From positions 1 to 32,962 of IMG/VR virus record IMGVR_UViG_3300029993_000021: 32,962 nt of DNA. One strand, written 5' to 3'. This document shows, piece after piece, positions 4,563 through 18,166 of the stretch. Position numbers and translations under genes: made by a program. The notes beneath the pieces were generated by a model. The model did no database searches. It was given only the letters and a program-made list of their open reading frames with translations, and had not been told where the DNA came from. Source of the DNA: a virus. The stretch's first letter is position 1; each line of letters starts with the position of its first letter.

Positions 4563-4946
4563 TCATGTCGCAAGTATACCGTTAGACGGGCTCGCGTCCA
4601 CCTCGCGAATGGTCAGCGTCACATGGCCTTTACCGGACGGCGCGCCGCGCTCGATTAGCAGCCAGTCGATTTGTGAGTCGTCCAGCCACACGCGTTGCTC
4701 CGTGAGGGTGTCGAAACACAACTTTTCCCGGTTCGCGACATCGAATAAAGGGCCCAGCGCCGCTGGCGCGTGTAGCACCATCTGCACGGCCAGGCGGCCA
4801 GTCAGCGGCGACACCAGCCCACTTGGCAACGCACTGGCCAGCTGTTTTTTGTACTTGCGCGCCGCGGCTGACAGCAGAATGCGGCCGCCGACCGCGCGAT
4901 ACAGCCGGTTGAGTGACGGCGGCCAGGGGAGGGTCAGCAGTACCAT
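4563..4946 (-). CDS. rusA: RusA-like Holliday junction resolvase
   Basis: This 127-residue protein has 'LPWPPSLNRLYR' at residues 6-17, the typical RusA opening (PPS-N). It also has the catalytic region 'FDVANREKLCFDTL' (about 68-81) and 'WLDDSQID' (87-94). RusA resolves branched DNA made during recombination and packaging. In RusA proteins the first catalytic motif is usually D-x-D-N; here the second acidic residue is Ala (DVAN), while the first Asp, Lys75, Asp79 and the later Asp-Asp pair are kept. The ATG at 4946 has GAGGG just upstream. A longer TTG-started form would run through a hairpin and a parS-like site and is rejected. Confidence 0.8.
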   Translation of the reverse strand: MVLLTLPWPPSLNRLYRAVGGRILLSAAARKYKKQLASALPSGLVSPLTGRLAVQMVLHAPAALGPLFDVANREKLCFDTLTEQRVWLDDSQIDWLLIERGAPSGKGHVTLTIREVDASPSNGILAT

Positions 4947-4963
4947 GCGGCCCTCAAACGGAA

Positions 4964-4985
4964 CAGGGCGCCCAGAGGCGCCCTG
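4964..4985 (-). terminator. Perfect 9-bp hairpin in the SSB-RusA gap
   Basis: On the minus strand CAGGGCGCC and GGCGCCCTG form a perfect 9-base-pair stem with a TCTG loop, followed by TTCCGTTTG. It may act as an intrinsic terminator or attenuator between SSB and RusA, or as an mRNA 3' end stabiliser. It directly abuts the parS-like site at 4986, so both share the same 58-base gap. The U tract is short, so termination may be partial. Confidence 0.55.
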
Positions 4986-5001
4986 TGTTTCACGTGGAAC
5001 A
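4986..5001 (-). promoter_or_regulatory. parS: Perfect parS (ParB-binding) site
   Basis: The minus strand reads TGTTCCACGTGAAACA, identical over all 16 positions to the bacterial chromosomal parS consensus TGTTNCACGTGAAACA (N is C here). It lies in the non-coding gap after the SSB stop and beside a hairpin. parS is the loading site for ParB, which recruits ParA/SMC in chromosome and plasmid segregation. No ParA or ParB gene is visible in the window, so the likely binder is the host ParB or a phage protein encoded elsewhere. Sequence identity is seen; binding is inferred. Confidence 0.75.
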
Positions 5002-5004
5002 GGC

Positions 5005-5643
5005 TTACGCAAACGGGTTCGCCGTTGCGGGCTTGGTCGACTGCTGGAACGGGTCAGCGGCAGTAGAGCCCGACGACGCGCCCGTGGCGGCGCTCCCGGA
5101 CGGGCTAGCAGCGGGCTCCTGCTTGACGACGTTCATGTCAGCGTAGCCCGCAAACGCATTAGCTGCCGTGTTGCCGATGTTGAGGCGCTCGCCATCGCTC
5201 ACAGCCATCACGCCGTCGAGATTGAACGAGATGCCGCCGCCTTCGTTGGGCCAGTAGTAGGCCGAGAGAGCCGCACGCACTTTCTTGCCCGCATAGAACT
5301 TCACACGGATGTCAGCCGTATGCGTGGCCTGGTCCAGCTGGTTGCCGCCTTCATCGGCCAGATACGGCGGGAACTGCGTCGCCGCGCGGATGATGAACCA
5401 GTCAGCCGGCACGCCCGGGACGGGCTTGTCGAGCTGCGAGTTACGGCGCACGCCGACTTTCAGGCCATTGAGCGAACCGCCCGGGGCGACCTGCTTGGCG
5501 ATCGCCTGCAGGTCGTTTGCCGCGTCCGGCGCGAAGGCCAGCAGGGCGTAGAACTGCAGCGGGTTGCCGGCTTTCTTGCGGTTGGGCTGGGCGGCGGCCA
5601 GAGCGTGGTGAGTCAGAATTGCAACGTGATCAGAGATAGCCAT
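5005..5643 (-). CDS. DUF2815-like phage ssDNA-binding protein
   Basis: This 212-residue protein contains 'LQFYALLAFAPDAANDLQAIAKQ' (about 29-51), 'FIIRAATQFPPYL' (83-95), 'VKFYAGKKVRAALSAYYWPNEGGGISFNLDGV' (in pieces 113-145) and 'AFAGY', the pattern of DUF2815 proteins, which have a gp2.5-like OB fold and bind single-stranded DNA. The C-terminal tail is low-complexity (Ala/Ser/Gly/Thr) and ends 'PFA', resembling a disordered SSB tail though not acidic. It follows the Cas4-like nuclease gene and precedes RusA, forming a recombination/replication module. The ATG at 5643 has CGGAG about 9 bases upstream. Confidence 0.8.
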   Translation of the reverse strand: MAISDHVAILTHHALAAAQPNRKKAGNPLQFYALLAFAPDAANDLQAIAKQVAPGGSLNGLKVGVRRNSQLDKPVPGVPADWFIIRAATQFPPYLADEGGNQLDQATHTADIRVKFYAGKKVRAALSAYYWPNEGGGISFNLDGVMAVSDGERLNIGNTAANAFAGYADMNVVKQEPAASPSGSAATGASSGSTAADPFQQSTKPATANPFA

Positions 5644-5761: not shown

Positions 5762-6976
5762 TTATGCGTTCTTTTCGGGCTTGTCAAGTGTCCTGTGTGC
5801 ATATTTGTCGAACGTTGCAGCGACGGTCAGCGGGTCGGCCGCCTCAGTGGTCAGGATGGCGCGGGCCCCTGCGGCGCGCTTGATCAGCGTGACCTGCATC
5901 TCAGCCGGAATAGCCGCCAGTGCCTCGCCGATGGCTGCAGGGGCCAGCAAGTCCAGGCGGTTAAGTGCTAGCAAGGTAAACACGGCTGCGTCGGGATCGG
6001 CCCACATCTTACGACCGGTGGCCACCTTCACCACCAGGCCAGCGGCGCCCTTGTCGGCCATCTCGTCGATGCGCTCCTCGATGTCCTCCCAAAAATGCTT
6101 GAACGCCGACTTGACCGACCACAGCGCGAGTATCTCCGCATCGGTCATGTCGTGCACCAGCGCCGCCTGGGTGTGCGCCTGGAGCGCTACCTTGCCGGCG
6201 GTGCTGACTGCCGGGCAGCGGGCATTCTTGGCCACCGGGCAATAGCGGCAATGGCTGCCCGGTACGGGCGTCGTGAGTAGGCCCGCGAACGCCGCTTCAA
6301 CCTGGCGGGCCTCGGCCAGTAGCTTGGCACGCTCGGACGCCAGCCACGTCTCGGGCAACAACAACACCTGCCCGGGCTCGCCGTGGATCCGCCGCGGCTG
6401 GTAGATGGCCAGCCCGACCGTCAAGGGCGCGAGCTTGAACGTCTCGGCAGCGGCGACCGCGTAGGCGGCCACTTGCGCGTTGGGGGCGTCGACTGTGCCC
6501 ACGTCCACCTCGCCAAAGCCGTATTTGTAATCCACGCCGGCCAGTCGCCGAATGCCCGGGAACCACAGCAGGCAATCGGCCGTGCCGAACAGCGGCGGTG
6601 TGATGCCATCCACGGCCACGCGTTTCTCCAGCACGACCGAGACATCGGGGAAATTGCCCACTAGCGTAGCAATGAACGCCGCGTAGTCCTGCCCGTGCAG
6701 GCGCATTTTGGCGTTCCAAGCGTTGACCGTCTGGCCTTTCAGGTCCAGACCGGCGGGCGGCTGGTACTCGGGCGGGATGCCGGGTTTCGCACCTTCCAGC
6801 CCGAACCGCTGGCGCACGTAGAACTCCGCCACCTTGTGGGCGATGGTCCCCTCCTCGGCAGCCGGACCTGACTCGTTGGGCAAATTCTCGCTCCACGGGA
6901 CTGAGACCGCGCATTTGGACCAGCGCGACCGGGCGGACATTGACAGTTTGCTATGAAGTTCTTGTGTTTCGCTCAT
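5762..6976 (-). CDS. DUF2800 Cas4/AddB-like PD-(D/E)XK nuclease with Fe-S cysteines
   Basis: This 404-residue protein is of the DUF2800 type. Nuclease motifs are visible: 'HKVAEFYV' (47-54), 'GTADCLLW' with Asp134, and 'VDYKYGFG' with Asp149 and Lys151, the D-x-K of a PD-(D/E)XK core, followed by 'QVAAYA' (168-173). A single early Cys (22) plus 'HCRYC...C' (Cys243, 246, 254) gives the 1+3 cysteine layout of Cas4 and AddB nucleases, which bind a 4Fe-4S cluster. It would act as a DNA end-processing nuclease in phage recombination. It starts the leftward operon that reaches SSB, RusA and the lysis genes. The start ATG 6976 is preceded by AAAGG and a CCACCACA leader. Confidence 0.8.
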   Translation of the reverse strand: MSETQELHSKLSMSARSRWSKCAVSVPWSENLPNESGPAAEEGTIAHKVAEFYVRQRFGLEGAKPGIPPEYQPPAGLDLKGQTVNAWNAKMRLHGQDYAAFIATLVGNFPDVSVVLEKRVAVDGITPPLFGTADCLLWFPGIRRLAGVDYKYGFGEVDVGTVDAPNAQVAAYAVAAAETFKLAPLTVGLAIYQPRRIHGEPGQVLLLPETWLASERAKLLAEARQVEAAFAGLLTTPVPGSHCRYCPVAKNARCPAVSTAGKVALQAHTQAALVHDMTDAEILALWSVKSAFKHFWEDIEERIDEMADKGAAGLVVKVATGRKMWADPDAAVFTLLALNRLDLLAPAAIGEALAAIPAEMQVTLIKRAAGARAILTTEAADPLTVAATFDKYAHRTLDKPEKNA

Positions 6977-12409: not shown

Positions 12410-12765
12410 GACTTCCCCCTCACCATCGATTCGGTCGTTTCTTCGCGTGGCGGCAATTTCCCGTCAGCCACGTTTCGGGCGATAGCTTTCTCAGTCATCT
12501 TCACGGCATGTGCGATAGCGTCATCCTTCGACCAGTCGCGATAGCAATTGTCGTGGTTGACGATGTTTATCCATTGCGTATCCCAAAGGCGAACCTCACC
12601 GGCACCAACCACCACGGGACGCTCAAGGATTTCTTTCAGTGCATCGGCGTGCTTATGAAGCCTCAGGTATTCTTCGTAAGAGCATTCGCCCTTCAGGTAG
12701 CGATTCGCGTCCTTCTTGATCGCATCCACCAGCTCCCGCATAGCGCGGTTGTCGGGGGTTATCAT
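12406..12765 (-). CDS. Conserved-looking phage protein of unknown function
   Basis: This 119-residue mostly helical, charged protein includes 'DAIKKDANRYLKGECSYEEYLRLHKHADALKEIL' in pieces and 'VNHDNCYRDWSKDDAIAHAVKMTEKAIARN'. It has no membrane segment and no motif I recognise. ATGA overlaps link it to the RNA ligase upstream and to the methyltransferase downstream, so the three are translated as a unit. Confidence 0.65.
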   Translation of the reverse strand: MITPDNRAMRELVDAIKKDANRYLKGECSYEEYLRLHKHADALKEILERPVVVGAGEVRLWDTQWINIVNHDNCYRDWSKDDAIAHAVKMTEKAIARNVADGKLPPREETTESMVRGKS

Positions 12766-13307
12766 CGCTGCATCCCTTTCGGCACGTCGTCTTTCTCGAT
12801 GGTCTTTTTGAATCCAACCCCAGCGGCAACGTGAAAAACCACTACCCCTTCGGGCTTAGTGAAGCCAGGAACTGCGCGGCTACCATTCATCGCCAACTCA
12901 GACAGGGCGGCGTTGATGGATTCCTGACTGAATTCGCCTCGATACAGTGTCGGAACAACGTGGCAGCATGAAGGGCGGCCATCGCCGTCCCATCTAGTCA
13001 CGTTAAAAAGAGAAAATCGTTTCTCTCTCAGGCCATACCCCCGCTGAATGCCGCAGCCCCACCACTCGCCAAAATGGCGGCCCGGACCAAGCTTCAATAT
13101 TTCATCGCGGTTCTCGTTTACCCACGCAGCAAAGCCGAAGTTGTCATCTTTAGGCGTGATCCATCGTGTTCGACTTCCGGGCAACAGAAGTCCGTCTTCA
13201 GTGATATAAATCTGAGCATTCGTGCCGTCTAACTTTTCTGTAACGACGATTTCCCGAGCCAGTCTAGCCAGCTTAGGAAACTCAATGAATTCGATAATTT
13301 CACTCAT
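12762..13307 (-). CDS. RNA ligase family protein (Rnl2-like nucleotidyltransferase domain)
   Basis: This 181-residue protein shows all motifs of a covalent nucleotidyltransferase. Motif I is 'EKLDGTN' with the adenylated Lys25. Motif III is 'GEWWGCGIQRGY' (80-91, Glu81), IIIa 'FSLFNVTRW' (98-106), IV 'PEGVVVF' (Glu153), and V 'FKKTI' (166-170). The 'GEW-G-GIQ-Y' and 'LFNVTRW' wording is that of the RNA ligase family (PF09414). Only the catalytic domain is present, with no C-terminal domain as in T4 Rnl2. It would seal nicks in RNA, perhaps repairing tRNA cut by host defences. ATG 13307 is chosen because upstream residues overlap the preceding gene. Confidence 0.8.
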   Translation of the reverse strand: MSEIIEFIEFPKLARLAREIVVTEKLDGTNAQIYITEDGLLLPGSRTRWITPKDDNFGFAAWVNENRDEILKLGPGRHFGEWWGCGIQRGYGLREKRFSLFNVTRWDGDGRPSCCHVVPTLYRGEFSQESINAALSELAMNGSRAVPGFTKPEGVVVFHVAAGVGFKKTIEKDDVPKGMQR

Positions 13308-13312
13308 TTCGC

Positions 13313-13585
13313 CTACTCCTTGATCGCGTTGAATACGGCGGTGAGGGCAGCATCCCAGCACTCGTATGCCGTGTGCGCACCAGACACAAGCTTTACCGAA
13401 TACGCCTCGTGAGCAATCGACGACAACTCAGGCGTCACCTCAAGGGACTGGATGGCAGCTTGCCAGCCCATCTCCATAGCCCGGCGCATGTCGCCATCTG
13501 TAGGCATACCTAGAGGATTGTTGTGCGCACGGGCTAGCTTGTTGCTAATCAGGTCGATGTACCACTTCTCAAACTTCGCGTTCAT
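13313..13585 (-). CDS. Hypothetical protein, first gene of the leftward cassette
   Basis: This 90-residue protein begins MNAKFEKWYIDLISNK and contains 'GDMRRAMEMGWQAAIQS' and 'AYECWDAALTAVFNAIKE', an amphipathic helical protein typical of small phage morons. ATG 13585 is chosen because it lies about 22 bases after the predicted transcription start of the promoter at 13614-13642; longer starts would sit at or before the -10. No family is recognised. Confidence 0.6.
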   Translation of the reverse strand: MNAKFEKWYIDLISNKLARAHNNPLGMPTDGDMRRAMEMGWQAAIQSLEVTPELSSIAHEAYSVKLVSGAHTAYECWDAALTAVFNAIKE

Positions 13586-16635: not shown

Positions 16636-16665
16636 AGAAAGGCCCGGCTCATGCCGGGCCTTTCT
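16636..16665. terminator. Strong bidirectional terminator after the capsid gene
   Basis: AGAAAGGCCCGGC and GCCGGGCCTTTCT form a perfect 13-base-pair stem with loop TCAT, carrying its own A and T tracts on both strands. It ends capsid transcription 24 bases after the stop. For the convergent endonuclease gene the stop codon lies in the loop (16649-16651), so its last residues are encoded by the right arm. Confidence 0.9.
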
Positions 16666-18166
16666 GCATCCAACGCCACAGTTTCTTCCCGCTGTCCCAC
16701 ATGCGAAAAGCGTTCACGGCGTCCTCGATGTCCCATTCGGTACGGAGATCAGTCGCGGGATCGAATGCCAAGTCGGTGCGGCCTATCTGTCGCAGCCGCG
16801 CCGGCAGTTGTTTACGGGCCCAGGAACTCTTAGGCCGGAAGCCGAGTGCATGGTGATACACGCGATAGTCAGGCGGGATCTCGCGCGCCAGCTCGAAGCC
16901 CATGTGTGCGTACGTGCCGCCGTCGAACCAGTCGTTGGCGGAGTAGGAAACAACTTCGCGGCAGCCCAGCGTGCGCACGGCGTGCGCGAATAACTTGGAT
17001 GCGCCGCCCCGCACGCGCGCTGACGTAGCGAACCGCGTGAGATCCCACACGCCCGACTCGACGCGGTTGCGGTCATAAGCGTCCTTAGCTAACGTCATCA
17101 CCGCGACCAGGCCGTGCGCGGGGTGCACGAGTCCGAACCGGTGTGCATAGACTGCGCCCGGCTGCTGCGGGTGGTGACGATCGAGAAACGCTACCGTTTC
17201 GGTATTAGGAATCGGCTCAACCGTGCAATCGCGAGCATGCAGCGCCGGACGGTTGTCGCAGCCCAGCGCCGCCCGTAGCAGATTCTCGAAAGGCGCCCGC
17301 CGCTCGGTCCAGTCCTTGCAGGCAATGGCGATCAGCCGGTAGCCCGCAGCCTTGCACGCTTGATGCTTAATACGTGCTGCGGCCCGCTCGCGCGTGCGCC
17401 GATCGGAATGCCAGTACACGTCATTTAGCTCAATAGCTACGCCACGCGACGGCACGACGATGTCTAGTTCTTTCGGCTTGATGATGGTCCGATCGGACTG
17501 GTAGGCGTCAGGACAGAGCGCCTGCACGAAAGCGAACAGGTCGCACTCGGTCGGTGAAGGGGCGCCGCTGACGCATTTTTGGCACCCGTAGCCGTGTCCG
17601 TGGTTTGCAGGAGTCTGCTCGAATGGTCCGTGTTTAGGGCAGACGATGGTGACTTTGTCGAGTGCCTGGCGGTAGACCGTCTGCGAGTAGTTGTATTTGT
17701 CGCCATGGGCGGCGCGCGCACGTTCCACGAAATGCGCCAAGTCTTTCTGGCGCCCCGCTGCTTTGCGCAGGTTTCCGCATGCGGGGCAGCCTCGCCCCTG
17801 TGTGTGCCAGCCTGCTACCTGCTTGAAAGGACCGTGCGCTGCACAGCCTATCGCCACACATAGCTGATCGCCGCGATATTCCACGTGGCTATAGTCATAC
17901 AGGTCACCATGCACTGCGCGGGCTTTGACGATCCAAGCTGGCGTGTCGAAGCGCTGCCTATCACCGCGCGCGATGTAGCTGCATTCTCGGCAATGGTCGC
18001 CTTCAGCGTGCTTGCCCGCCGCTTGCTTGAAGGGTCCGTGATCCGGACAGATGATGGTGATCTTGGCCTTGCCGCCGTGGATCGTCTGCGGCGGATAGGT
18101 GTAGCGGTCGCCGTGTTTTGCGGCGAAACGAGCCAGCCAGGTTTCTGTGGTGATAGGTGCGTTCAT
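16649..18166 (-). CDS. Free-standing Vsr-like (EDxHD) homing endonuclease with zinc repeats and acyltransferase-like tail
   Basis: This 505-residue protein has three tandem repeats of about 53 residues at 10-62, 77-130 and 144-198, each ending H-G-x-F ... H ... C-x-x-C ('HGPFKQVAGW', 'GRGCPAC'), like the DUF723 zinc repeats of phage endonucleases. The nuclease follows: 'PTECDLF' (Glu207), 'KELDIVVPSRGVAIELNDVYWHSD' in pieces with Asp235, Glu246, His253 and Asp255, the pattern of the EDxHD (I-Bth0305I/Vsr-like) family. The C-terminal 200 residues look like a GNAT fold ('RGGASKLFAHAVRTLG', 'MGFELAREIP', 'YYHALGF'-like). It probably cuts DNA of rival phages near the capsid locus and spreads itself. 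Function of the tail is not known. Confidence 0.8.
   Translation of the reverse strand: MNAPITTETWLARFAAKHGDRYTYPPQTIHGGKAKITIICPDHGPFKQAAGKHAEGDHCRECSYIARGDRQRFDTPAWIVKARAVHGDLYDYSHVEYRGDQLCVAIGCAAHGPFKQVAGWHTQGRGCPACGNLRKAAGRQKDLAHFVERARAAHGDKYNYSQTVYRQALDKVTIVCPKHGPFEQTPANHGHGYGCQKCVSGAPSPTECDLFAFVQALCPDAYQSDRTIIKPKELDIVVPSRGVAIELNDVYWHSDRRTRERAAARIKHQACKAAGYRLIAIACKDWTERRAPFENLLRAALGCDNRPALHARDCTVEPIPNTETVAFLDRHHPQQPGAVYAHRFGLVHPAHGLVAVMTLAKDAYDRNRVESGVWDLTRFATSARVRGGASKLFAHAVRTLGCREVVSYSANDWFDGGTYAHMGFELAREIPPDYRVYHHALGFRPKSSWARKQLPARLRQIGRTDLAFDPATDLRTEWDIEDAVNAFRMWDSGKKLWRWMQKGPA

Follow-up and report, generated by a model that had tools for sequence, protein, structure and literature searches.

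Bacteria rely on the ParB–parS pair as their main centromere system. Phages P1 and N15 and the extrachromosomal mycobacteriophages encode their own ParA and ParB and are maintained as plasmid prophages. The parS sites of bacterial chromosomes were reportedly reviewed by Livny et al. in 2007, and the original phi29 paper by Meijer et al., from 2005, is said to have reported parS sites in that phage. At parS, ParB undergoes CTP-dependent clamp loading and spreading, activates ParA, and recruits SMC (PMC12704722, PMC10197239). Our reading of the open-licence literature found only isolated cases of foreign DNA that exploits the ParB of another replicon. The phi29 genome is entrapped in spores in a Spo0J (ParB)-dependent manner, according to PMC9437464, which cites Meijer et al. 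2005 (EMBO J), and the parS mimics of SGI1 are bound by the ParB of its helper IncC plasmid, which stabilises SGI1 (PMC10954446). No survey of orphan parS sites in phages was found in the same literature.

A single parS site behind the ssb gene

The window, by which we mean the whole stretch of DNA analysed here (32,962 bases), is an IMG/VR virus fragment of 62% GC and part of a Naesvirus-like (Bcep781-like) myovirus. It encodes a terminase, portal, Mu-F-like head morphogenesis protein, major capsid, and tail sheath, together with a DNA polymerase, helicase, exonuclease, Gp2.5/Enc34-like SSB, and RusA. The nearest isolated relatives by SSB, at 37-41% identity, are the Burkholderia phages Bcep1, Bcep43, Bcep781, and BcepNY3 (Naesvirus) and Xanthomonas phages such as XapPhi1 and KPhi1, all of which have the gene order exonuclease, SSB, RusA in common with the window. 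These isolates, all lytic myoviruses, have genomes of 44-49 kb, which makes the window roughly 70% of a genome. No tRNAs were found, and an SSB profile search of genome_contigs returned no SSB relatives in bacterial genomes. Separately, the genes for an endonuclease and an RNA ligase family protein lie on the minus strand inside the plus-strand structural gene block (Table 1).

Table 1 Features of the window discussed in the text.
Feature	Positions	Strand	Description and evidence
parS	4986..5001	-	TGTTCCACGTGAAACA, exact match to the chromosomal ParB-binding consensus TGTTNCACGTGAAACA
Hairpin	4964..4985	-	GC-rich, CAGGGCGCC-TCTG-GGCGCCCTG, directly abutting parS; RNA fold z -2.9
ssb	5005..5643	-	Gp2.5/Enc34-like single-strand DNA-binding protein, 212 aa; phrog_112 8e-10, phrog_16841 2e-44, PF10991 5.5e-7
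rusA	4563..5012	-	RusA-like Holliday junction resolvase; phrog_34 5.6e-25, PF05866 5.6e-11
Exonuclease	5762..6976	-	Upstream of ssb, same recombination gene block; phrog_69 2e-51
Endonuclease	16649-18166	-	HNH/homing-type; phrog_559
RNA ligase family protein	12762-13361	-	PF09414

The initial annotation had called a perfect parS on the minus strand, and the match is indeed exact, with 3 nt separating it from the end of ssb. It is the only copy in the record, where the next best site has three mismatches, so the abundance of near-matches that would have pointed to chance was not seen. Under models of base composition and of first- to third-order Markov chains, the expected number of such sites on both strands of the record is between 1.8e-5 (base composition) and 6.9e-5 (third-order Markov), and the earlier estimate of about 6 in 100,000 was thus right.

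The hairpin into which parS runs has a weak T tail and probably marks where the ssb transcript ends, although a terminator scan did not call it. Its stem is conserved, with paired changes in relative L140, its RNA fold z ranges from -2.1 to -3.0 in relatives, and in most relatives, those without parS among them, the ssb stop is followed by a hairpin. A scan of the region for consensus promoters and terminators gave nothing at parS itself.

In line with the initial annotation of the window, no ParA or ParB gene was found, and this extends to six related records: neither ParB_N (PF02195) nor the ParA-type AAA_31 (PF13614) was matched in any of the seven (G000-G006), one of which is 45.5 kb long. 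An integrase (PF00589) was likewise not found in these seven records. The window, itself a fragment, therefore resembles a phi29-type phage in having parS with no ParB or ParA of its own, no integrase, and virulent kin in Naesvirus, rather than a phage-plasmid with its own parABS. For the part of the genome missing from the window, the absence of parB would follow only by way of the 45.5-kb relative. A phage-encoded ParB or ParA and a temperate lifestyle were both considered, and neither was found in the window or its six relatives; the plasmid-like state suggested earlier finds no support in the gene content.

Conservation of parS among related phages

Using searches for SSB relatives and a search for parS followed by CAGG, we identified six lineages that carry the site: the window with L135, L168 (= L150), L169 (= L003), L170 (= L004), L171 (= L144), and L173 (= L158). 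The SSBs of the other five are 59-75% identical to that of the window. In all six, parS starts 4-7 nt past the ssb stop and runs directly into the hairpin, and every record has exactly one parS, the 45.5-kb relative included. Three lineages have TGTTCCACGTGAAACA, one has TGTTTCACGTGGAACA, and two have TGTTCCACGTGGAACA, and each of these fits the chromosomal-type 16-bp sequence TGTTNCACGTGNAACA exactly. That five divergent relatives have the site in this one place, and vary only at the two degenerate positions of bacterial parS, indicates a true parS rather than a coincidence.

The 14 fixed positions of parS are invariant across the six lineages (14/14), versus 8/52 fourfold ssb sites, counted in conserved codon boxes, over the same six sequences. 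The probability of 14 invariant positions is about 4e-12 at the fourfold rate and 7e-6 at the whole-gene rate. This comparison shows that the site is kept by selection, and since it is read in a different frame in L158 and precedes a different gene in L150, selection acts on the DNA itself and not on an encoded protein sequence.

On the SSB tree, the six parS lineages form one group with support of 93/84, and the presence of parS requires a single change, a value that none of 500 shuffles reached (0/500). The sister lineage L172 (65% identity) has no parS but retains the hairpin at the junction. No exact parS is present in the whole records of the other SSB relatives outside the six, and Bcep1, XapPhi1, KPhi1, and PhiXhv-28 have none within two mismatches. 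The initial annotation had made much depend on related phages having the site at this position; five divergent lineages do, but L172 and more distant relatives do not, a pattern that fits a single gain of parS, as read from the tree. One-mismatch sites occur elsewhere in the records of two relatives, inside a tail gene in L182 and, in L176, between a stop codon and a hairpin in the same layout but at another gene.

The rusA start and the coding status of parS

The earlier claim that parS lies in a 58-base non-coding gap is doubtful, as it depends on a rusA start at ATG 4946. The alternative is TTG 5012, from which the rusA frame stays open across parS. This frame is also open through the gap in L003, L004, and L144, with similar residues (VP(S)R[EG]TQG). 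Moreover, the residues [FYW][EQ]GR, upstream of ATG 4946, are kept even in relatives that lack this ATG, and in L004 and L144 an ATG in the rusA frame overlaps the ssb stop (ATGA). Based on the open frame, these residues, and the two overlaps, parS in the window, as in L003, L004, and L144, probably falls within the 5' part of rusA and would be translated VPRETQ. We also note that ATG 4946 is not conserved and the upstream frame is, so automatic gene calls may truncate rusA.

Coding nonetheless does not explain the site. In L158, parS is read in another frame (MFHVEH), and in L150 a different gene lies downstream, after the hairpin. The window codons over parS (GTT CCA CGT GAA ACA) all end in A or T in a gene set with 77% GC3, and the joint synonymous probability of these five codons is 3.6e-5. 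The earlier argument, that parS is not forced by a protein because the region is non-coding, is not supported, since rusA probably reads through the site.

parS in phages at large

Among 50,697 phage records, TGTTTCACGTGAAACA with flanking A/T occurs in 315 and TGTTCCACGTGAAACA in 147, with 0 for the control palindrome in each case, and TGTTCCACGTGGAACA occurs in 58. Examples are AB910393 16588-16603, PQ741025 7919-7934, and NC_011048 10445-10460, the last being the phi29 genome, which has further matches in the record. The extended motif TGTTNCACGTGNAACACAGG gave 27 matches in IMG/VR and its same-letter control palindrome 0. parS in isolated phages is therefore far above chance, with the 16-mer of the window over-represented hundreds of times among sequenced phages, and its strong enrichment over control palindromes again favours a true parS over coincidence. 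A ParB_N match (E 0.001) is missing from 47 of 50 parS-bearing viral records. By a crude ORF analysis of viral records, 38% of the sites are intergenic compared to 13% of bases.

Hosts among the matches listed are Listeria, Microbacterium, Arthrobacter, Gordonia, Bacillus, Lactobacillus, Pseudomonas, Stenotrophomonas, and Vibrio, and Microviridae are also found among the parS-bearing phage records. The only enterobacterial entries among the matches listed are ten Klebsiella records, mostly jumbo phages of about 350 kb, several of which have parS in a coding gene. A dependence of parS on the host is no more than suggestive, given that the records are not independent and that these hosts are those among the matches listed. 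The P. aeruginosa phages KPP25 and CRPAP1904 have a stop codon, parS, and a strong terminator in the same order as the window, and this layout arose separately there.

Several parS-bearing viral records contain clusters of up to 12 sites. Contigs of this kind are L054 (record G080), L027, L070, and L136; in G080 (169,219 b), 12 parS are packed into some 19 kb that spans the joined contig ends, and a contig family with terminase and portal genes has 4-5 parS within about 1 kb. ParB_N was not matched in the cluster records G080, G068, and G036. In P. syringae phages of 98-100 kb, including phiPsa374, phiPsa267, and phiPsa315, the direct terminal repeat contains parS, some 370-410 bp in from the left end, so each genome would enter with two copies. 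In the related phage contigs L143 and L145, TGTTTCACGTGAAACA precedes the major capsid gene by a few bases.

These observations may reflect a general and repeatedly evolved strategy in which phages borrow host ParB through an orphan parS, with the window clade as one cleanly dated gain. We hold this broader reading tentatively. Taken as a whole, it has somewhat less than even odds. The strategy would span tailed phages and Microviridae, and Gram-positive and Gram-negative hosts alike, and would be largely limited to ParABS hosts, with the sites commonly next to terminators at the ends of genes.

Discussion

We favour the reading, with a probability of roughly 0.6, that the window carries a functional orphan parS that loads host ParB and so couples the phage genome to the segregation machinery of the host. 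By analogy with phi29/Spo0J and SGI1, we infer that after infection the host chromosomal ParB, with CTP, would be loaded as a sliding clamp at the phage parS and would spread from there along adjacent phage DNA. ParB could in turn couple the phage genome to nucleoid ParA and to SMC, which ParB recruits. The most likely benefit would be that phage genomes, while infecting or replicating slowly, are held at the nucleoid and passed on to the daughter cells if lysis is delayed. It counts against this reading that partition is of no obvious use to a strictly lytic phage, and that most Naesvirus-like relatives have no parS and do without it.

An unlikely alternative use of the same site is titration, in which multiplying phage parS would draw ParB, and SMC with it, off the host chromosome, disturbing segregation and freeing resources. 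One site per genome, as found, would suffice for this since replication multiplies the copies, and some other viral records have up to 12. However, titration would favour many dispersed sites, and the window clade has kept exactly one. The gain would also be small because parB is dispensable in several hosts, among them P. aeruginosa (PMC5521831).

It is improbable, too, that the site serves local gene control, with ParB acting as a roadblock at the end of ssb that, together with the hairpin, sets read-through into rusA and the lysis genes. The precise position of parS, which in 6/6 lineages begins 4-7 nt past the ssb stop and abuts the hairpin, would suit this, as would the recurrence of the layout in KPP25 and the L176 record. 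In P. aeruginosa, ParB represses promoters adjacent to parS (PMC5521831). But L150 has another gene downstream, and a different gene lies upstream in KPP25 and the L176 record, so the site appears to follow gene junctions and not a given gene. Many other phages, moreover, have parS away from terminators, as inside gene 10 of phi29.

The palindrome could also be an RNA element, either a second terminator hairpin or an attenuator of the ssb-rusA transcript, which we regard as very improbable. It adjoins a strong conserved hairpin and folds as an RNA stem in L158 and L144. Against this, TGTTCC..GAAACA in the window, L003, and L150 breaks the central pair, so that 3/6 lineages lose the pair and keep the parS consensus, and an RNA stem is ruled out on this basis. 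Compensatory changes that leave the parS consensus were not seen among the six lineages, where variation tracks the consensus and not base pairing. The predicted fold of the window uses the neighbouring hairpin and not the palindrome, and the junction hairpins of relatives work without one.

That the site arose by coincidence, or simply follows from the protein sequence at the N terminus of RusA, can scarcely be maintained, because the open frame and similar residues of four lineages, which would suit it, are outweighed by L158 and L150 keeping parS without that frame, by the window codon choice, by conservation beyond that of fourfold sites (P ~4e-12), and by a chance expectation of 2-7e-5, which together rule out both chance and protein coding as the cause.

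If host ParB is indeed borrowed, ParB, and probably SMC, would be expected on phage DNA in many lytic infections, and chromosome-segregation proteins would be infection factors. The sister lineage L172 provides a natural control, and a search with the single parS motif gives a way to find such phages. The case described here is a clade of lytic phages outside Bacillus that keeps one perfect parS under measurable selection.

Comparison with known systems

The window site has the 16-bp consensus and the degenerate positions of bacterial chromosomal parS, but it lies on a phage, in a genome with no ParB gene, and away from a bacterial oriC. Like P1, N15, and the extrachromosomal mycobacteriophages, the window phage is phage DNA with a centromere-like site; unlike them, it has no ParA or ParB genes in the records covered (G000-G006). 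It resembles SGI1 as a mobile element that has no ParAB of its own and a parS that the ParB of another replicon would bind. SGI1, however, is an integrative mobilizable element whose parS is of the plasmid type, with another sequence, and binds the ParB of a helper plasmid rather than a chromosomal one.

In comparison to phi29, an unrelated podovirus of 19 kb whose host forms spores and whose site lies in gene 10, with more than one match in the record, the window clade has one site, located after ssb. The nearest isolated relatives of the window infect the non-sporulating Burkholderia and Xanthomonas, and spore entrapment is therefore probably not the purpose of this site. The likeness is nevertheless direct, as phi29 is virulent, has the identical 16-mer, and is reported to have its genome carried into the spore by host ParB (PMC9437464).
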